A stretch of 50,531 bases of DNA from a virus, in IMG/VR virus record IMGVR_UViG_3300044620_000612, positions 1-50,531 of that record. One strand, given 5' to 3'. The translations under genes and the position numbers were made by a program. Below, one piece after another: positions 1 through 29,218 of the stretch. The notes under the pieces are model-generated. The model was not told the origin of the DNA, did not search any database, and saw only the letters and a program-made list of their open reading frames with translations. Positions within the stretch are counted from its first letter, which is position 1, and each line of letters opens with the position of its first letter.

Positions 1-3000
1 GAGTTCAGCATTAGCGTAGTCAATTATCCCTATTGGATTTTAAAGCGTTACGAGTTCACGACTACATGGAATAACGCAACTAACGGCGTTGTGCCGCCAG
101 TATCCATTAGCAACAGAAACAATGCGTTAGACTTCGACTATGAGTTAGAGACTGTGAGCGTTGGCTCCTACTATCGAAGGTTTAGAATTAAGAGGACGAA
201 GGGCACGACTGCAAACGTCCAAGCAATGGTTCTAATGCGTAGCTTCGGAGATTTCGCCACACATTCGCGAACCGAGCTTACCGGGACTGGAACATCAACA
301 TACAGCTCGTACATCACTCGAAGCTACGACTATGTAAACCCAAACATTGCTGCGCCACCGCCTGCAAACTACAGCGGAAGCGGAACGCCGCTTTCCCTGT
401 ACGCCAGCAACGCAATCGGCACAGGAGCTGGTGGCGGATTAGCACTGCAAGCCGGTAACGCAGCAAGCACAGGCGGCGGTGGGAGCATAACGCTCTACAC
501 AGGAGCAGGTGCAGGAGGCGGCGTAGGCGGTGCAATTCTGAGCCGAAGTCAAGCGGACTCGTACAACCGAAGCCACAAGTTCATCTTAGTCAGGAGCATC
601 CCTGATACTGTTGGCAACTATGTGGAGCTTGGGAGAATTGGCTGGCTAGCCGGAGCGATCCTAAAAGTATCTGTATTCGCTAGTCGAGGGGCGTTTCACG
701 CTGCTTTCAATACTTACAATGCTCTCGGCAAAGAGTACGAGATTTACACTCACTACTACAGTAGTGGAACTGTAGCTCCAAGGGCGATTTCTGGCGATCT
801 AGTAGGCGGACGGCAACCAAACGAGTTTGAGCTTGAGCTAGCTTGGAACGGCAACGGATACCAAGTATTGCGCCTTAGAAGATCCAAAGCTGACGCTACC
901 AACTTCAGCGGCTACACAGCTACAGTTGTTATTGAACAGTTAATCTGGTCGCCACACGCCTTTGAATTCGTTGAGTTGTCGGGCACAGGTACCTCAGCCC
1001 TCACTAACGCTTACCTGACTAACACCGGCACTTATTGCTATCCAGCCCTGATCCCGCCTCCAACTGTTGGCACTTCTGGAGCCGGTACAGACCTAGCTAT
1101 TTACGGTGGCAGCGCAATCGGCACAGGTGCTGGCGGTTCCATAATCCTTCAGCCGGGAGCACAGGCTACGAGTGGTGGCGATGGCACAGTTATCAGTCGT
1201 CGCGGGGCTAACGGCGTATCAAACATTCATCATTTTCAAGTCGGCACTAGCACATACGCATTTATTGACAGCAGCGGGCGATTATGCATAACCCCTGAAG
1301 TTTCAACCACAGTTATGCCTGTGGATTGTGGCTTATTTGTAACGCCGAGAAACAACGCAAACACTATTGGTGTTGTCGTCAGAGGTGTTTCTGGGCAGGC
1401 GGGCAACCTTCAGCAGTGGCAGAATAATGCTGGAACCGTCCTGTCTGCCATCAACAGCGCAGGCGACTTTACGAATACTGGCGGGCAGGCTCAATCTGAA
1501 AAATTTGGAAATGGAGCTGTAGTTTCTGTTGGACAAGCAACAGCGATTGGAAATGGAGCATCGGCTGGACAGCTTTCAACTGCTGTTGGGTATGCCGCAG
1601 GAACTACTGGCGTTACTGGGGTTGCTGTAGGGGCACAAGCAAGTGCCAACGATGGCTCAGTTGCCGTTGGCAGGCAGGCTGGCGCAAGTGGCGGTTCTGC
1701 TATAGCGATTGGTCCTAACGCATCAGCAACAGGAGCCAACTCAATAGCGGTCGGAAGGCTTTCTGCGTCCAGTGGTGGCATATCGATTGGCTACAACTTT
1801 ACTGGCGTTGGTCTTGGATATACAAGTTTCAACGCTTCAACCAACGGCACTTCGTCCACAGGCGCAATAGCTGTTTATGCTGGTGATGGTGCAAACAACG
1901 GCAATTTTAGCCGTCAGCACTCCATGCTCGGCACTTGGTCAGTAGCCACTTACGCATCACGCCTTGGCCGTGTCCAGTTGCGTGTCAACGACTACACGAC
2001 AGATCGTGAAGCAATCCGCTACGAGTCTGACGGTGCAAATGCACTGACTAGCATCGGTGGCAGTGCGATAATCGCCAACACTACGCTGGCAGTTCAGCCT
2101 GCTGTTTCTGGTAACAAGGGCGTTGTAGTAAAGGGTGCGTCTGGACAGTCTGCAAATCTTCAGGAGTGGCAAAACAACAGCGGCACCGCTCTAGCGTCAA
2201 TTGATTCTGCTGGAAACTTCGGCGTTAATTCCATCACTTCGACTGGAGCGTTTGATACATACTTCGACACTTGGTACGGAGCAGTTAAGAGGCGTGTGTA
2301 CAGGGTTTCTGTACCAAGCACGATTGGCAACTACCAAGAAATATTCAGGCTAAACTGGTCAAGTAATGTTATTGCAAAGATCAAGGTTCTTGCATTTGGC
2401 AGCGGCATAGCAAACGCCAAAGAATACGATTTCAATTCGTCATATGGAATGACCGGCGTGCTTGCCCCGCTAAGGTCTGCATACTTGTACAACACGGTTG
2501 CTGTTCAATACGAGCTTGAGAACGACTGGAATGCTGGCACAGGCTGGAACACCATTCGTGTCAAGAGGACTTCAGGCACAGATGCTCTGAACCTGTTTGT
2601 CTACGTTGAGGTTCTTGATGCAACTTCAGGACATCCTCAAGCTGTAAGTGGAACCGGCACTTCATCAATTGGCGGCATACTTGGCTCATACGCAAGCTTC
2701 ACATCAATTACCCCGCCAGATGTAGTTGGCGGCAATGGTAATGGCTACCAACTCAGCCTGTACGGTGGCAATGCGCTTGGCACTGGTAATGGCGGCAACA
2801 TCCTACTGCAAGCCGGTGCGCTGTCTACCAGCGGTTCCAACGGCAAAGTCATCGTGCGTGGCTTGGCGAGTAATACTGCGAACTTGCAAGAGTGGCAGAA
2901 TAATGCTGGGACGGTTTTGGCTTATGTCAGCTCTGACGCATCAGTAATAGGCACCCCATCTAATTGCTATATTGGGGCAAACGACAACTCTGGCGGCCAG

Positions 3001-3420
3001 ATAATACTTTATGGTTCTGCTGGCGGTTACGGGGTTGGCTTCAAAACAACTAGCTCAGGCAGTGAAGTAATAAGGTTCAACAGCGGACAAATCGCGCTTA
3101 CAGTTGGCCAAGGCGGGAATAATGCTGGCTTGCTAGTCAACGGGAATTTAGGCTCGTCTGGAAGTGTTGCATCATTTGTAAACGCTGGTAATGCTGCCTC
3201 TAAGGGCATCGTAGTCAAAGGCGCAACTAGCCAGACAGGCAATTTGCAGGAGTGGCAGAATAATGCTGGTTCAGTCCTATCAGCAGTAAAGTCTGATGGA
3301 TCAATTCAACCAGCAAGCATGGCTGATTCGGCAGCTACAAACAATTCAATCTATTATTCAACTACAGCGTCAAAACTGGTTTACAAGGATGCTGCCGGGA
3401 CTGTTAATAATCTTTATTAA
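1..3420 (+). CDS. Tail fibre protein, C-terminal part (5' end outside window)
   Basis: The frame is open from base 1, so the start lies outside the window; about 1,139 residues are present. It is a modular beta-rich receptor-binding fibre. It has beta-sandwich modules ending in short G-T-G-T-S segments, Gly-rich stretches of the G-T-G-A-G-G type, a trimeric-adhesin-like roll (1534-1797) and four modules carrying the motif NLQEWQNNAG. The first residues look like the continuation of the module cut off at 50531, so this is probably the 3' part of the fibre gene that starts at 48713. It would sit at the tail tip and bind the host surface. The fibre assignment is firm; the receptor is unknown. 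Confidence 0.85.
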   Translation, partial: EFSISVVNYPYWILKRYEFTTTWNNATNGVVPPVSISNRNNALDFDYELETVSVGSYYRRFRIKRTKGTTANVQAMVLMRSFGDFATHSRTELTGTGTSTYSSYITRSYDYVNPNIAAPPPANYSGSGTPLSLYASNAIGTGAGGGLALQAGNAASTGGGGSITLYTGAGAGGGVGGAILSRSQADSYNRSHKFILVRSIPDTVGNYVELGRIGWLAGAILKVSVFASRGAFHAAFNTYNALGKEYEIYTHYYSSGTVAPRAISGDLVGGRQPNEFELELAWNGNGYQVLRLRRSKADATNFSGYTATVVIEQLIWSPHAFEFVELSGTGTSALTNAYLTNTGTYCYPALIPPPTVGTSGAGTDLAIYGGSAIGTGAGGSIILQPGAQATSGGDGTVISRRGANGVSNIHHFQVGTSTYAFIDSSGRLCITPEVSTTVMPVDCGLFVTPRNNANTIGVVVRGVSGQAGNLQQWQNNAGTVLSAINSAGDFTNTGGQAQSEKFGNGAVVSVGQATAIGNGASAGQLSTAVGYAAGTTGVTGVAVGAQASANDGSVAVGRQAGASGGSAIAIGPNASATGANSIAVGRLSASSGGISIGYNFTGVGLGYTSFNASTNGTSSTGAIAVYAGDGANNGNFSRQHSMLGTWSVATYASRLGRVQLRVNDYTTDREAIRYESDGANALTSIGGSAIIANTTLAVQPAVSGNKGVVVKGASGQSANLQEWQNNSGTALASIDSAGNFGVNSITSTGAFDTYFDTWYGAVKRRVYRVSVPSTIGNYQEIFRLNWSSNVIAKIKVLAFGSGIANAKEYDFNSSYGMTGVLAPLRSAYLYNTVAVQYELENDWNAGTGWNTIRVKRTSGTDALNLFVYVEVLDATSGHPQAVSGTGTSSIGGILGSYASFTSITPPDVVGGNGNGYQLSLYGGNALGTGNGGNILLQAGALSTSGSNGKVIVRGLASNTANLQEWQNNAGTVLAYVSSDASVIGTPSNCYIGANDNSGGQIILYGSAGGYGVGFKTTSSGSEVIRFNSGQIALTVGQGGNNAGLLVNGNLGSSGSVASFVNAGNAASKGIVVKGATSQTGNLQEWQNNAGSVLSAVKSDGSIQPASMADSAATNNSIYYSTTASKLVYKDAAGTVNNLY
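481..661. repeat. Fibre module repeat, copy A
   Basis: This 181-base stretch is about 97% identical to 50351-50531; I count five mismatches. It codes for a Gly-rich run followed by a segment ending in the residues GRIGWLAGAI. The window ends exactly inside the other copy, which suggests that an assembly stopped in this repeat. Confidence 0.9.
1369..1464 (+). repeat. NLQxWQNNAG fibre module 1
   Basis: A 32-residue module with a V-V-V-R-G start, NLQQWQNNAG in the middle and an I-N-S-A-G end. Related modules lie at 2119, 2842, 3205 and 49694. It is probably a short beta element that joins fibre domains. Confidence 0.85.
1534..1797 (+). other. YadA/Hia-like head repeats inside the fibre
   Basis: Successive units of about 14 residues with a repeating A-V-G or A-I-G core (for example SAIAIGPNASATGANS) match the left-handed beta-roll repeats of trimeric autotransporter heads. 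About six units are present. In that family each unit adds one turn to a trimeric roll that binds host surfaces. Here the roll is built into a phage fibre, which fits a trimeric adhesive domain. Confidence 0.7.
2119..2214 (+). repeat. NLQEWQNNSG fibre module 2
   Basis: Second copy of the 32-residue module, with V-V-V-K-G-A-S-G-Q at its start and D-S-A-G at its end. It directly precedes a beta-sandwich module. Confidence 0.85.
2842..2940 (+). repeat. NLQEWQNNAG fibre module 3
   Basis: Third copy of the module. It is more diverged at its C-terminal end (A-Y-V-S-S-D) but keeps the central motif. Confidence 0.8.
3205..3300 (+). repeat. NLQEWQNNAG fibre module 4
   Basis: Fourth copy of the module, about 40 residues before the fibre C-terminus. 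Confidence 0.85.
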
Positions 3421-3431
3421 GGAGCTTTCTA

Positions 3432-3791
3432 ATGCCTGATCCAGAAGTAAACGCTGTAATGCCTGACTTTCCTCCAGTCCCTGCTGCTGATCCAGTAGTC
3501 ACTCCTCCAGTACCTGAAGAGACTCAGGATGTATGGGGTCTAGATTACCAGCATATTCGCCGCTACGAAGTCGAGGGCGGATTCAAATTTGAGCTATACA
3601 CGATCTGGTCTTTAGGCCGAATGTCAGCTACCGGAGTTTGGACTCCAGCTAAGCCAGAAAACAAAAAGAATGTTGTTCTAGCCGATATGCTGTCGCCAAC
3701 TTCTCTAGACGAAAATCCTGAGATCGGTGCGATTGCAACGCCATTCTTTACTAACCTTGCATCTCTATGTAAGCGAGTTGGCAACCTGTAA
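3432..3791 (+). CDS. Small protein following the tail fibre, unknown function
   Basis: A 119-residue protein with a Shine-Dalgarno AAGGAG placed well for this ATG. The first 35 residues are rich in Pro, Ala and Val and look like a flexible arm. The rest is a compact domain with W-G-L-D-Y and a hydrophobic C-terminal helix (about residues 100-117). It lies 11 bases after the fibre stop and 9 before the next gene, so it is co-expressed with the fibre. It could be a fibre chaperone or accessory tail protein; this is context only. Confidence 0.75.
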   Translation: MPDPEVNAVMPDFPPVPAADPVVTPPVPEETQDVWGLDYQHIRRYEVEGGFKFELYTIWSLGRMSATGVWTPAKPENKKNVVLADMLSPTSLDENPEIGAIATPFFTNLASLCKRVGNL

Positions 3792-3800
3792 GGAGCTTAA

Positions 3801-4937
3801 ATGCTCGGCGGTTATCCACTAGCAAAAGCACCATTAGCAAGCCTCGGTTCAACTGGGGCTAATGCTATTGGTGCGTTTGTTTCGTTGGTTTTAACTGTGC
3901 AATCTGGAACGGCAACTGGTACTGCTTCGGCTTCAGGCCTGTCGAATTCATTAGTAGTATCCAAGCAACTTGGAACAGCAACTGGAACAGCAGCGGCTTC
4001 AGGCTTATCGAACAATCTTGCCGTATCTAAGCAGATTGGCAGCGCATCTGGAGCGGCATCGGCTTCAGCATTATCCAACAGCCTAGCAATATCAAAACAA
4101 CTTGGTTCTGCTACTGGGAATGCCTCGGCTAGTGGTCTATCTAATTCGTTGCCGTTATCGCCTTTGTCTGGATCATCAAGCGGTTCATCGTCTGCCTCTG
4201 GATTGTCCAACAGCCTGACGATTTCTAAGCAATTAGGATCGGCTACAGGAACAGCACTAGCATCTGGACTGTCCAATAATATAGCCATCGTCAAGCTGGA
4301 TGGTTCATCGTCTGCCTCTGGTAACGCATCCGGCCAATCAAATAATCTCGCCATAGTTAAACTTGACGGCTCATCATCTGGATCAGCTAGTGCGTCTGGG
4401 ATAGCCCAGAACATTTCCTTAGCCAAGATGAATGGTTCTTCAATAGGTAGTGCTGTTACTTCCGGTTTAATAACCAACATTGCATTGGCTAAACAGCTAG
4501 GCTCAGGTTCTGGATCGTCTACGACTTCAGGAACAATCACTTCGGTTTCAATTACAAAACAGCTTGGCAGCGCAATAGGCGGGGCATCAGCATCAGGCCA
4601 ATCCAATTCAATAACGATTGTAAAGCAGCAAGGTACTGGATCAGGTTCGGCAAATACATCTGGAATAATCCAGTCAATAACAATCCAGCCTGTTGCAGGT
4701 TCGGCTTTTGGATCAGCTGTAGCCAACAGCGATATGACTTTTGTGGCTATCGTCCATCAAGACGGTTCAGCCAAAGCATTCAATCCTCCAAGTTGGGCGA
4801 GGGCAAGAGTTTCAGAAATAACCAATGCCAATGCAAGTGTAAGAAAAATTGGATTCACAAACAGGATTGTTGCTCAGTCTTATGTAAAAATTAATAATTC
4901 AACAAGAACAGCAAATACTATTGTCCCAATTGATTGA
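3801..4937 (+). CDS. Tandem 22-residue repeat protein, probable tail/fibre structural protein
   Basis: 378 residues, of which about 290 form 13 tandem repeats of exactly 22 residues with the consensus h-x-h-S-K-Q-L-G-S-A-S-G-x-A-S-A-S-G-L-S-N-S. The regular alternation of a hydrophobic triplet, a Gly-Ser turn and a second Gly turn is what a beta-solenoid or thin fibrous shaft would need. A non-repetitive tail of about 65 residues follows (from S-W-A-R-A-R), rich in basic residues and Asn. AAGGAG precedes the ATG. Gene order (fibre, this, Ig-like protein) supports a virion surface protein. The long minus-strand ORF opposite it is an artefact of the repeats. Confidence 0.8.
   Translation: MLGGYPLAKAPLASLGSTGANAIGAFVSLVLTVQSGTATGTASASGLSNSLVVSKQLGTATGTAAASGLSNNLAVSKQIGSASGAASASALSNSLAISKQLGSATGNASASGLSNSLPLSPLSGSSSGSSSASGLSNSLTISKQLGSATGTALASGLSNNIAIVKLDGSSSASGNASGQSNNLAIVKLDGSSSGSASASGIAQNISLAKMNGSSIGSAVTSGLITNIALAKQLGSGSGSSTTSGTITSVSITKQLGSAIGGASASGQSNSITIVKQQGTGSGSANTSGIIQSITIQPVAGSAFGSAVANSDMTFVAIVHQDGSAKAFNPPSWARARVSEITNANASVRKIGFTNRIVAQSYVKINNSTRTANTIVPID
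3863..4720 (+). repeat. 66-base tandem coding repeats (about 13 copies)
   Basis: Each copy is 66 bases and keeps the reading frame; copies differ at many third positions, so the array is old or under protein-level selection. Conserved peptide core: SASGLSN. Confidence 0.85.
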
Positions 4938-4945
4938 GGTAAATC

Positions 4946-5230
4946 ATGGCATATGACATTGGTGATACCTTGAGATTAACCGTCACATTTACAAGCGTTA
5001 TTAACTCAACGCCAGCAGATCCAACCAATGTAAAACTTATAGTAAAACGCCCTGATTTAATTGAAGAAGAATTTTTATACCCTGCTATTTTACAAAAAGA
5101 TTCAATTGGAATATATCATCACGATTATTCTATAGATCGAAGTGGTAGATTCTGGTATCGTTGGGAGGGAACTGGAGCAAATCCTTCTGCCGTGGAGGGT
5201 TATTTCATAGTTTCCCAAAGTCAGTTTTAG
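4946..5230 (+). CDS. Small Ig-like/beta-sandwich phage protein
   Basis: 94 residues starting YDIGDTLRLTVTF and ending GRFWYRWEGTG followed by a short beta strand. This pattern is common in small phage virion proteins with an immunoglobulin-like fold, often encoded beside tail or neck genes. GAGG precedes the ATG and the gene starts 8 bases after the repeat protein. It probably decorates the virion or caps a fibre. The function beyond the fold is inferred. Confidence 0.7.
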   Translation: MAYDIGDTLRLTVTFTSVINSTPADPTNVKLIVKRPDLIEEEFLYPAILQKDSIGIYHHDYSIDRSGRFWYRWEGTGANPSAVEGYFIVSQSQF

Positions 5231-5255
5231 GTGAAATATCCGGGGCAGGGCGGGG

Positions 5256-5381
5256 ATGTTTTTGCTGTTTCCTGTCACGCCTCATACCACACCAGAAGAT
5301 GAACAGCGTCATGGAGTGGTTGCCCCGGTTATCCTTCTTTTACTGGAGAGTCTAAATGGATTGGTCAATTCGACAAACTGA
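5256..5381 (+). CDS. Possible small hydrophobic protein in the 5231-5355 gap
   Basis: A 41-residue ORF in an otherwise empty gap. It has a hydrophobic N-terminus (MFLLFP), a polar centre (TTPEDEQRHG) and a hydrophobic stretch (VVAPVILLLLE). A G-rich run precedes the ATG, and it overlaps the next gene by 26 bases. The composition looks protein-like and the gap has no other content. I cannot exclude chance. Confidence 0.35.
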   Translation: MFLLFPVTPHTTPEDEQRHGVVAPVILLLLESLNGLVNSTN

Positions 5382-6207
5382 TCCTCATGCTTATCGCTTA
5401 GACTTTACAGGATTGAAGGATAGGGATTGGAGGCGTGTCATGCTCCTATCCGATCTGCACTGGGATTCTGCTCAATGTAATCGGGAACTGCTCAAGAGAG
5501 ATCTAGACGAGGCATTAAAAACGGGAACCCCTGTCATTCTGGTTGGCGATACCTTCGATATTATGCAGGGTAAATTTGACAAGCGAAAATCGGCTAAATC
5601 CCTTCGACCAGAACACCAAACCGACAACTATATCGACACAGTAGTCGATGACGCAATCGACTGGTTTACCCCTTACAGAGATGTCCTAGCTCTTGTCTCC
5701 AAAGGCAACCATGAAACATCATGGGAAAAATACCATGATACAGATGTATGCGCCCGATTCGTATCCGGCCTAAAGCGTAACAAATCCTCGGTACTTCTTG
5801 GAAAGTACTGGGGTTTTGTACAAATCGGTTTAATTGAAAGTCCCAAAAACAGGGTATCTAAAACCCTATTTTTTCATCATGGCGCAGGCGGGGGTGGAGA
5901 AATTACACGGGGTATGATAGATAATTCTAGAACTAGAGGTATGTATATGGCAGATGCTTTCATATCTGGACATATCCATAGACGAAATTTAGATGAGAAT
6001 ATAGTATATCATTTAAACAACTTAGGAACAGTATGTGCAAGACAGCAGCTATTCCTTCGTAGTTCGACATACAAGATTGAGGATGATGGGTATCACGCAG
6101 AGAAAGGACGGGGGCCAAGGCCTCTGGGTGGATGGTGGCTTGAATTCCGCTATCTACGAAATTCAGATGTTGGGACTGATTGCAATATGAGGGCTTATCA
6201 GACATGA
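5356..6207 (+). CDS. Calcineurin-type metallophosphoesterase
   Basis: 283 residues with the complete metal-binding set of the family: D33-L-H35, GDxxD at 64-68, GNHE at 117-120, a His pair at 174-175 and GHIH at 205-208. Such enzymes cleave phosphomono- or diesters using two metal ions; phage members act on nucleic acid ends, cyclic nucleotides or signalling nucleotides. The substrate cannot be read from the sequence. It sits among virion genes, and its stop overlaps the next ATG (ATGA), so it is late-expressed and might be packaged or act in host takeover. Confidence 0.85.
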   Translation: MDWSIRQTDPHAYRLDFTGLKDRDWRRVMLLSDLHWDSAQCNRELLKRDLDEALKTGTPVILVGDTFDIMQGKFDKRKSAKSLRPEHQTDNYIDTVVDDAIDWFTPYRDVLALVSKGNHETSWEKYHDTDVCARFVSGLKRNKSSVLLGKYWGFVQIGLIESPKNRVSKTLFFHHGAGGGGEITRGMIDNSRTRGMYMADAFISGHIHRRNLDENIVYHLNNLGTVCARQQLFLRSSTYKIEDDGYHAEKGRGPRPLGGWWLEFRYLRNSDVGTDCNMRAYQT

Positions 6208-26514: not shown

Positions 26515-27063
26515 ATGAATAAGGACATCCTTGGCCTTGATCCTGACTCTGGAAAGTTAATTAAAAATAAACCGGCTAAGGGACCAGCTGGATTAAAGAC
26601 AAGTCATGTAATTAAGAATCTAACTAATGCCGAAATAATTGAAGCGATAACAAAGTGTCGAGGACTCCTATATCTTGCCTCAAATGTATTGAGCGTTAAT
26701 TACCAGACACTTGCTGAGCGGGTTAATAACGATCCCGAATTACAAGACGCAGTCAAGGATCAACGGGGTAAAACCCTTGACATGGCTGAAGCCAAATTGA
26801 TGCAGGCAGTCGATAAGGGAGAGCAATGGGCAATCACCATGCTCCTCCGTACTCTGGGGCGTGAGAGGGGCTTTGTGGAGCGTCAAGAGGTATCCAATGT
26901 AACCACAGTCCGGCTGCAAATAGTCGAGGAAATTGTCGATTCTAATCAGAAGCAAATTGCCGTAACAGTTAATCCGACAATCGACTATCGGCCAAACTTG
27001 CCAGAAGGATTCAGCGATGCCAAGACCGAAGGGGCCGAGCTTGAAGGCGAGTATGACGGCTAA
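26515..27063 (+). CDS. terS: Small terminase subunit
   Basis: 182 residues directly upstream of the large terminase. A helix-turn-helix-like N-terminal part (NAEIIEAITKCRGLLYLASNVL, NYQTLAERVNNDPELQDAV) is followed by a helical oligomerisation region (TLDMAEAKLMQAVDKGEQWAI) and MLLRTLGRERGFVERQEV. This is the usual layout of TerS, which recognises phage DNA and hands it to TerL. Ribosome site AAAGG. The C-terminus is acidic. Confidence 0.8.
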   Translation: MNKDILGLDPDSGKLIKNKPAKGPAGLKTSHVIKNLTNAEIIEAITKCRGLLYLASNVLSVNYQTLAERVNNDPELQDAVKDQRGKTLDMAEAKLMQAVDKGEQWAITMLLRTLGRERGFVERQEVSNVTTVRLQIVEEIVDSNQKQIAVTVNPTIDYRPNLPEGFSDAKTEGAELEGEYDG

Positions 27064-29218
27064 AAAGCCGGTTGAAACAATCAGTAAGACCTTCAAGCTA
27101 CATCAAATTCAATATGATTTTCACCATTCCCAAGCCCTGTATCGAGGATTTGTGGGTGGCATCGGTTGCACCGCTCCAGAAACTCTTCTGGGCGGTATAC
27201 CAATTGGCGATCTTACTTCTTCTGGGGGAGAATGCCGGACTCTATTAGGTGACGCTCTAAGATCACCATCTTTCTGTAAGGGGAAAGCTGATCTTTATCG
27301 AGTGACAATGGAATCAGGTCGAGAGGTAACGGTAACCTTAGCCCACCGTTTTCTAACGCCAGAAGGCTGGATTCCTCTGAGCAAATTGCGTATCGGCTCT
27401 TTATTAGCTGCTGATGGTAGCGAAGATGCGATTCGTGACTTGGGAAAACCCATAGATTTGAAGGGTGATTATTGGCGGGGACTTCATCGTGATGATGTAC
27501 AGTCTCACCCGATTCAAGCATTCTATTTAGACAAAATTCAGCAATCCTTCGAGCGAATTTCCGGCAATCGCTCCATTCAATCTGGGATTTTCCACCCTTC
27601 CATTGGCGATTCTTTGGCCCAGAAGCATTGCCAGCCTTCCTCATCTGGAGAGTCTTATCATGCTTCAACATTCTCCTGCGTATCACTTCAGCATCAACAC
27701 TATAAAGCCTGCCCAAATCAATCGTTGACATTCCTTCCTTATATTGACAAACAACCTGATCCATTGGCAATTGATGAATTGGATTCCTTGCGCCCCTTCC
27801 GGCAAACACGCCATTCCTCCGAAGAACTCTTGAAACTTGACTTTGACCAATGCCAAGTTGAGCAGCAACAATCTTCTGATTTTTATGGGCATTCCATAAA
27901 TCAACCACAATATTATCCATATAGCCTCCGAGAGTGCTTAGGTTCAATTACTTATACTAATTCATTCTGGGACAAAGTTCAAGATATATCATTTATAAAA
28001 CATGGTGATTTTTATGATTTAACGGTTCCCGGTCTTGAGCATTATTCTGCTGCTGGGCTTTATCACCACAATAGTGGAAAGTCATGGGTTGGAGCTTACG
28101 ATTTGCTACGCCGGGCGATGAGTGATGATGGCAAGGGCCGCCTCTACATGGTCATTTCCCCGACCTACAATATGCTCCAAGACGCAACCATGCGAACAAT
28201 CAACCAGTTGGGAGAAGAATTAGAAATAATCCGAGAGAAGTGGAAACAGCCTCCCCGCCTTGTTCTTACAAATGGATCAGAAATTATCTTCCGTTCCGGT
28301 GACGATCCAGACAAGCTACGGGGGCCAAACATTAGCGGAATCTGGATGGATGAAGCCTCGATCATGGAGGAAGAGGTATTCAATATTTGCATTGGTCGTT
28401 TGCGGGAAGGCGGAAAAGCTGGATGGCTAACATCAACCTTCACGCCCAAGGGAATGAGCCATTGGACTTACAATGTATTCGGCAAAGGGGATCGTGAGAA
28501 CACGGAGCTATTTAAATCCAAGACCTCCCAGAACCCGTTTCTTGCTGGAGAGTTCATTAAGGCAGTTTCCAAGCAATATTCAGACAAGCAGGCGAATCAG
28601 GAATTAGATGGCGAATTCGTCGATCAGGAGGGCGCAGAGTGGCCATCCGCCCATTTCGGTGAACATATCTGGTTTGAAGAGTGGCCTGTAAATTCCAACA
28701 TTAAAATCAAAACTATGTCAGTTGACCCGTCCAAAGGTAAAGATGCACGGCATGGGGATTATACGGCAATTATTAAATTAGCCCGTGATAATAACGGAAT
28801 CATCTATTGCGATGCCGAATTGAAGCGCATGGATGCCGAAACAATGGTAGCCAAGGTGGTGGCAGAGGCTGAGGCATTTGAGCCGGATGGCCTTGGAATT
28901 GAAACAAACCAATTCCAGCATCTACTAGCTACGCAAATACTTGAAGAATCAAAAAGGCAAGGAAATGCTATTCCAATCATGCAAATCTATAATAATATAA
29001 ATAAAGATGTGCGTATTAGGAGGCTGGGGCCATACCTCGCCAATAAACTAATTCGATTCAAGCGTAGTGAAGGCACTCGACTCCTTGTTGCACAGCTGCG
29101 TGAGTTCCCGCTTGGGAAACATGATGATGGGCCGGATGCCTTGGAAATGGCATTGCGGACTATGATTTCCATCTGGAATGGCAAGCGGGCTCCACTGGCA
29201 AGAAGGATAATCGCATGA
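27053..29218 (+). CDS. terL: Large terminase subunit with intein in the Walker A loop
   Basis: 721 residues before splicing, 419 after. The start at 27053 has AAGG upstream and overlaps the TerS stop; 27017 is an alternative. The intein interrupts GGIG|SGKS, so ATP binding depends on splicing. Downstream: Walker B GIWMDEAS; the nuclease domain has SVDPSKGKD, G-I-E-T-N and D-D-G-P-D-A-L-E. TerL pumps DNA into proheads and cuts it. The first part encodes FRLHQ-type N-terminal helix and F-V-G-G-I-G. The portal ATG overlaps its stop. Confidence 0.9.
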   Translation: MTAKKPVETISKTFKLHQIQYDFHHSQALYRGFVGGIGCTAPETLLGGIPIGDLTSSGGECRTLLGDALRSPSFCKGKADLYRVTMESGREVTVTLAHRFLTPEGWIPLSKLRIGSLLAADGSEDAIRDLGKPIDLKGDYWRGLHRDDVQSHPIQAFYLDKIQQSFERISGNRSIQSGIFHPSIGDSLAQKHCQPSSSGESYHASTFSCVSLQHQHYKACPNQSLTFLPYIDKQPDPLAIDELDSLRPFRQTRHSSEELLKLDFDQCQVEQQQSSDFYGHSINQPQYYPYSLRECLGSITYTNSFWDKVQDISFIKHGDFYDLTVPGLEHYSAAGLYHHNSGKSWVGAYDLLRRAMSDDGKGRLYMVISPTYNMLQDATMRTINQLGEELEIIREKWKQPPRLVLTNGSEIIFRSGDDPDKLRGPNISGIWMDEASIMEEEVFNICIGRLREGGKAGWLTSTFTPKGMSHWTYNVFGKGDRENTELFKSKTSQNPFLAGEFIKAVSKQYSDKQANQELDGEFVDQEGAEWPSAHFGEHIWFEEWPVNSNIKIKTMSVDPSKGKDARHGDYTAIIKLARDNNGIIYCDAELKRMDAETMVAKVVAEAEAFEPDGLGIETNQFQHLLATQILEESKRQGNAIPIMQIYNNINKDVRIRRLGPYLANKLIRFKRSEGTRLLVAQLREFPLGKHDDGPDALEMALRTMISIWNGKRAPLARRIIA
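27167..28072 (+). mobile_element. 302-residue intein in TerL
   Basis: Starts with Cys1 in CTAPETLLGGIPIGDLT (block A). Block B is GREVTVTLAH (about 51-60) with the Thr-x-x-His motif, followed by RFLTPEGWIPLSKLRIGS. It ends with YDLTVPGLEHYSAAGLYHHN, that is block F and the terminal His-Asn, before Ser+1. All splicing residues are present. The centre (about 95-260) has no LAGLIDADG motif and is rich in Ser, Gln and His; this DNA codes for an HNH protein on the other strand. Confidence 0.9.
27213..27920 (-). CDS. HNH homing endonuclease nested antisense inside the intein
   Basis: 235 residues from the ATG with CGGAGG four bases upstream. Two helix-turn-helix-like segments come first: KNQKIVAAQLGIGQSQVSRV, and STIDLGRLYSVDAEVIRRRM. 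G-P-K-N-R-Q-W-K-G-G follows, then the HNH domain VHHHDEVPANNHPSNLWVF with a following H-E-S-H-L-R-Y-H. This is the standard layout of phage HNH homing nucleases. It lies entirely inside the intein DNA, opposite to terL, including opposite part of the splicing block B. It would cut intein-free terL and spread the element. Confidence 0.8.
   Translation of the reverse strand: MDNIVVDLWNAHKNQKIVAAQLGIGQSQVSRVLRRNGVFAGRGARNPIHQLPMDQVVCQYKEGMSTIDLGRLYSVDAEVIRRRMLKHDKTLQMRKAGNASGPKNRQWKGGKSQIEWSDCRKFARRIAEFCLNRMLESGETVHHHDEVPANNHPSNLWVFPSHESHLRYHQQLIKSRYAICSEESSLLALENGGLRLPLPLDLIPLSLDKDQLSPYRKMVILERHLIESGILPQKK

Follow-up and report, generated by a model that had tools for sequence, protein, structure and literature searches.

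An HNH nuclease gene encoded antisense to a TerL intein in phages and prophages

Introduction

Can one stretch of phage DNA serve as a protein-splicing element on one strand and as the gene of a homing nuclease on the other? The question is raised by the gene for the terminase large subunit (TerL) in the 50,531-base virus record IMGVR_UViG_3300044620_000612, which was analyzed at its full length and is referred to below as the window. A sequence-only reading had proposed that an intein in this gene and an HNH protein encoded opposite it form a single composite element. In published descriptions of inteins, the endonuclease forms an in-frame domain whose site is conserved (PMC6801210), and TerL inteins are common in mycobacteriophages (PMC5050341). 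In ShiLan, an HNH sequence lies in another frame of the same strand, where no splicing domain was found (PMC11855218), and nuclear group I introns may carry antisense homing endonuclease genes, for example Didymium L2066 (PMC9548176). No published antisense nuclease inside an intein was found in the literature searched, a body of work to which subscription papers and preprints mostly did not belong, and the paper on the Ymer genus mentions neither an intein nor an HNH protein.

The TerL gene and its intein

The intein-interrupted TerL ORF spans 27017-29218 on the plus strand and encodes 733 aa in a frame that is open throughout. The N-extein (27017-27166) and the C-extein (28073-29215, with the stop codon at 29216-29218) flank a 302-aa intein at 27167-28072 of the same strand, and the C-extein matches the terminase profiles Terminase_6N (1.9e-18), Terminase_3 (6.5e-17), and Terminase_6C (2e-07). 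The proposal that a complete intein splits the TerL P-loop is upheld. The Walker A motif is divided as GGIG/SGKS (the slash marks the junction), Pfam Intein_splicing matches the insert at 3.1e-11, above its curated cut-off, and the insert contains Cys1, a block B VTLAH (T-L-A-H), and a C-terminal HHN with its His-Asn end, followed by Ser+1 of SGKS. The intein profile also matches the DnaB intein structures 1mi8/4o1r/6frg. Among 66 defined inteins, a set in which Cys1 is part of the definition, 59 carry the block B TxxH pattern, and the +1 residue is Ser in 62, Thr in three, and Cys in one. The AF2 model of the intein, built from a six-sequence alignment, has a pLDDT of 29.9, too low to define the fold of the sense centre. 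The splicing motifs and profile matches predict self-splicing of the TerL intein.

Between blocks B and F, profile searches of the sense product detect no HEN family, and an HNH model matches none of the sense inteins and all of the clade A antisense proteins (9/9). A group I or II intron is ruled out, since the segment 26900-28500 matches nothing in Rfam at E<=1 and the host frame is open through the insert.

The antisense HNH gene

On the minus strand, a gene at 27213-27920 (ATG at 27918-27920, stop at 27213-27215) encodes a 235-aa protein that matches the PHROG HNH endonuclease family at 1.2e-10. The Pfam HNH_3 match falls under the cut-off for the window's nuclease (4.8e-4) and above it in the relatives L047, L050, and L171; profile searches thus recover the HNH motif that had been read from the sequence alone. 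This motif covers approximately residues 139-165 (TVHHHDEVPANNHPSNLWVFPSHESH; 27426-27506, minus strand), and its core, formed by the columns His, Asp, Asn, Asn-Leu, and His, is the same in 72/72 cluster representatives. The AF2 model of the nuclease (pLDDT 73.5) comprises a beta-beta-alpha core at the motif and two three-helix helix-turn-helix (HTH) segments, residues 2-35 (H2-12/H15-22/H26-35) and 53-87 (H53-61/H66-72/H77-87), which are encoded within 27660-27917 of the minus strand and give weak HTH profile matches. A Foldseek search of the PDB with this model returned no significant match, and a PDB sequence search with the nuclease returned weak HTH matches and nothing further. The protein is predicted to cleave DNA site-specifically.

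A Shine-Dalgarno-like GGAGG (27925-27929, minus strand) lies four bases upstream of the nuclease ATG, and AGGAG- or GAGG-like sequences precede the ATG in the other close lineages. The antisense protein with two HTH segments, an HNH motif, and a GGAGG site is therefore as first described, and both frames recur in relatives. The clade A alignment contains a TTGnnn-17-TAnnAT-like pattern upstream of the nuclease start, which in the window corresponds to a candidate antisense promoter at 27954-27982 (minus strand), composed of TTGAAC (27982-27977), a 17-base spacer, and TAGTAT (27959-27954). Codons at the candidate promoter are AT-rich through synonymous choice, even where TerL third positions are 80% GC (L022, L026). 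In L021, L022, and L026, the -10-like box lies six bases from the nuclease ATG, a gap that may reflect a leaderless transcript. A consensus promoter scan detected no antisense promoter upstream of the nuclease gene, and the window candidate is a weak match to the consensus. The nuclease probably has its own promoter, and these signals are consistent with expression from the antisense strand.

Relatives and distribution

Nine close IMG/VR loci carry both frames, with an antisense protein that is 77-79% (or 100%) identical; where the nuclease identity is 77-79%, that of the sense centre is 52-55%. More distant loci include L021, L022, L026/L027, L028, and L094. A second set with a related HNH comprises IMG/VR loci around L035/L050, Pseudoalteromonas phage PHS3, and cultured Pectobacterium phages (Ymer, Abuela, Sabo, Koroua, Amona, Taid, and Pappous) and Dickeya phage Setonix. 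Prophages of E. coli MEI003 and Enterobacter cloacae also have the arrangement, and plasmids gave no match.

Two scans, in which the query was an alignment of the antisense proteins only, yielded 87 relatives (80 viral and seven genome loci). In 83/87, the strand opposite the nuclease is open over the length of the gene, in a terminase-type frame and in a1-s1 phase, and these 83 nearly always have an intein C-terminus joined to the P-loop on the sense strand. The four exceptions are L056 (in-frame TAA), L144 (frameshift), and the free-standing L175 and L176. The TAA of L056, near 3095-3097, interrupts the intein sense frame opposite an intact antisense nuclease and represents either a sequencing error or a dead TerL; together with the L144 frameshift, it indicates that some copies are damaged or misassembled. 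Under a stricter definition, the full arrangement is present at 101 loci, forming 73 clusters at 90%; the zero sense stops in this set arise partly by construction, since an open sense frame was required, and the unbiased figure is 83/87. Profiles built on one clade recognize the other for both intein and nuclease. The antisense state may have arisen once or more than once: the best quick tree needs four changes, and a single clade is not rejected (p-AU 0.435).

At L028 (IMGVR_UViG_3300037230_000061, 2644-5610), the same class of intein and antisense nuclease occupies another TerL position, LC/ADGD...SHN/CAPY, so the P-loop is not always the site. A TerL mini-intein at the same P-loop site, with no nuclease noted on either strand, is found at L029 (IMGVR_UViG_3300032160_000274, 1250-3454). 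The N and C parts of the TerL intein of Brochothrix phage BL3 (L044, 1936-2604) are in different frames, possibly through a frameshift or as a split intein, and this TerL is annotated as truncated.

Intein-free sites and mobility

TerL genes without the insert are found among IMG/VR contigs, in coliphage KW1E_UTAR, and in E. coli A41. An uninterrupted GGIG/SGKS is present in at least nine IMG/VR contigs whose TerL is 97-98% identical, and L067-L072 and others lack exactly the 906 bp of the intein. KW1E_UTAR reads AGFG/TGKS at the position of Ymer's intein. The intein of E. coli MEI003 is 1008 bp long and contains an antisense HNH gene, and strain A41 has the same TerL without an intein, with flanks identical to those of MEI003 at 86/90 and 278/300. 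No clear gradient of co-conversion was seen in the flanks.

Identities of the element and of its host gene do not correspond. The element is 97% identical between L015 and L019 with TerL at 73%, and the nuclease is 84% identical between L050 and L051 with TerL at 31%; L014 and L015 have 99% identical TerL and a 78% identical nuclease. This mismatch indicates that the unit moves as a whole, also between terminase families.

The same distribution bears on whether the HNH protein has been domesticated as a partner of TerL in packaging, with homing secondary or lost. Terminase-adjacent HNH proteins can act in packaging in HK97-type phages (cited in PMC11855218), but close relatives entirely lack the HNH protein, 774/5,426 E. 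coli genomes carry this TerL and only 1/5,426 carries the nuclease, and the distribution crosses TerL families, which makes this role unlikely. Marginally less probable still is a nuclease that mainly destroys the terL of co-infecting phages in phage-phage competition, with homing as a by-product. Its target is an essential gene, and intron-encoded nucleases do destroy target genes of co-infecting phages; such destruction is nevertheless compatible with homing and not exclusive of it, and the precise transfer of the whole unit indicates that copying occurs, which counts against pure competition.

Comparison with known elements

In the split inteins known as fractured genes, a free-standing homing endonuclease lies between the two halves. 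They share with the present element a separate nuclease gene associated with an intein, but here the host ORF and the intein are continuous and the nuclease overlaps both; with TerL a single ORF, a split intein is ruled out. Canonical HEN inteins, including those of phage TerL, share the Hint domain, Cys1, the His-Asn end, insertion into the TerL ATPase domain (the P-loop here), sporadic distribution, and mobility (PMC5050341, PMC6801210). The nuclease of HEN inteins is an in-frame intein domain, whereas here it is a separate protein of the opposite strand, extending over the N-terminal splicing domain in clades A and C. Group I introns such as Didymium L2066 likewise have a homing nuclease antisense to the splicing element (PMC9548176), but that element is an RNA and the nuclease gene lies in a non-coding loop, opposite a strand without protein-coding duty.

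The hidden HNH insertions of ShiLan and its relatives in phage methylases also place the HNH in another frame while the host frame stays open (PMC11855218), and the ShiLan-type HNH is related to the clade C nuclease, which raises the possibility that the sense frame here is unspliced, a ShiLan-like tolerated in-frame insertion with a hidden nuclease. The ShiLan insertion, however, is on the same strand, shows no splicing domain, and is believed to be retained in the host protein, whereas the present element combines the opposite strand with a Hint domain. Its Hint signature is full, Pfam Intein_splicing matches the window as well as the relatives L021 and L050, the splicing blocks are conserved more than the sense centre, and, the ATPase being essential, an insert left unspliced in its Walker A P-loop would be lethal. 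A ShiLan-type unspliced insertion is rejected on these grounds as very improbable.

Same-strand, out-of-frame ORFs were also encountered. Gordonia phage GAL1 (L064, 2715-3602) has a RefSeq "nucleotide kinase" with a ShiLan-like, same-strand out-of-frame HNH. A DNA polymerase intein (L039, IMGVR_UViG_3300033562_001075, 3086-3676) contains a central HNH ORF on the same strand, out of frame, and a clamp-loader (DnaX-like) intein (L043, IMGVR_UViG_3300033233_000052, 3206-4048) contains a same-strand out-of-frame ORF with a Vsr/EDxHD-like nuclease sequence at its end.

Phase and selection on the two frames

The phase of the two frames is identical in every case: antisense codon position 1 lies opposite sense position 1, so that antisense position 3 is paired with sense position 2 and antisense position 2 with sense position 3. 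By geometry, this phase pairs the most constrained position of each protein with the least constrained position of the other, a pairing that may explain why the phase is fixed.

In the central region, changes that are silent in the antisense frame and alter the sense frame occur at 0.79 per opportunity, vs 0.27 for those that alter the antisense frame and are silent in the sense frame, and this excess, about three times, is found in 411/412 pairs, which are not independent of one another. It identifies the nuclease as the conserved product of the element's centre. The central regions of the close clade give 0.34-0.60 (nuclease-silent, intein-altering) vs 0.10-0.23 (the reverse), and in the clade A, B, and C comparisons identity is higher for the nuclease than for the sense centre. 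The two-strand comparison that had been proposed for this locus thus finds homologues keeping the antisense frame while the sense centre drifts. Third positions change most in the sense-only C-terminal codons, the ordinary pattern.

The sense centre had been described as looking unconstrained, and it is indeed less constrained than the nuclease. The nuclease gene, however, is not confined to the intein's central DNA: from 27213 to ~27418 its C-terminal part lies opposite the N-terminal splicing domain on the other strand, and both frames are conserved there. The close-clade rates in this overlap are 0.08, 0.09, and, for changes that alter both proteins, 0.03 per opportunity, values low enough to indicate constraint on both frames.

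Shuffling of synonymous nuclease codons gives an expectation of ~4-7 sense stops per element in most lineages and of 473 over 73 representatives; the 17 elements tested have 0. Judged from these sequences, the sense frame in the centre is still kept free of stops. Long antisense ORFs can arise by chance, and the antisense gene is unannotated in most records, but the reading that the frame is open by chance or passively, across from an intein centre that has degenerated, is refuted by the substitution pattern and is barely conceivable for a profile-recognized HNH protein with an invariant core, better conserved than the sense centre, whose frame synonymous shuffling of the sense codons would usually break.

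Discussion

Sequence comparison documents the arrangement, its conservation, and its mobility. With high confidence, we read the locus as a homing intein whose HNH nuclease is a separate protein encoded on the antisense strand, a reading in which splicing, antisense expression, cleavage, and homing are the predicted activities. The intein, translated from the sense strand, would excise itself from TerL, and the antisense HNH protein would be made from its own start site, probably under its own promoter. When phages co-infect a cell or come into contact with a prophage, this protein would cleave intein-free terL in its P-loop sequence, and repair templated by the intein-bearing copy would put both functions in place in a single step. 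The original proposal of a composite element, with one DNA for intein and antisense nuclease, gains support from selection on both frames, intein-free sites, and transfer between TerL genes.

The further suggestion that the locus captures a step in how inteins acquire nucleases gains no support as a transient step, since the arrangement is widespread and diverged and hence not a rare intermediate. We lean instead, with some reserve, toward composite mobile elements that form a long-lived class, with a nuclease stably encoded on the strand opposite the splicing protein, as an adaptive end state. On this account, the antisense position would free nuclease expression from terL, the single phase would let both proteins evolve, and the class would have gone unnoticed because annotation pipelines retain the gene on a single strand and treat its counterpart as absent or as a pseudogene.

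Existing records illustrate the last point. In E. coli MEI003 (L177, NZ_CP071263.1, 1391-3799), RefSeq lists TerL as a pseudogene with a missing N-terminus because it kept the antisense HNH protein WP_077828224.1, although the TerL-intein frame is actually open. In the PHS3 record, TerL lacks its N-terminal half, and in those of the Ymer genus the fused ORF is entered as a hypothetical protein and the nuclease is omitted. The arrangement has been overlooked in part through annotation that keeps one strand and drops the other, an error that these records expose as systematic.

The arrangement is a widespread, overlooked genetic architecture that is new among homing inteins. It changes the accepted picture of the intein nuclease as an in-frame domain, placing selection for homing and for splicing on opposite strands of one DNA. 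It also provides a natural, replicated overlapping-gene system, with one fixed phase and intein-free controls, in which overlap theory becomes measurable, and its mechanism is testable now through E. coli prophages and cultured phages.
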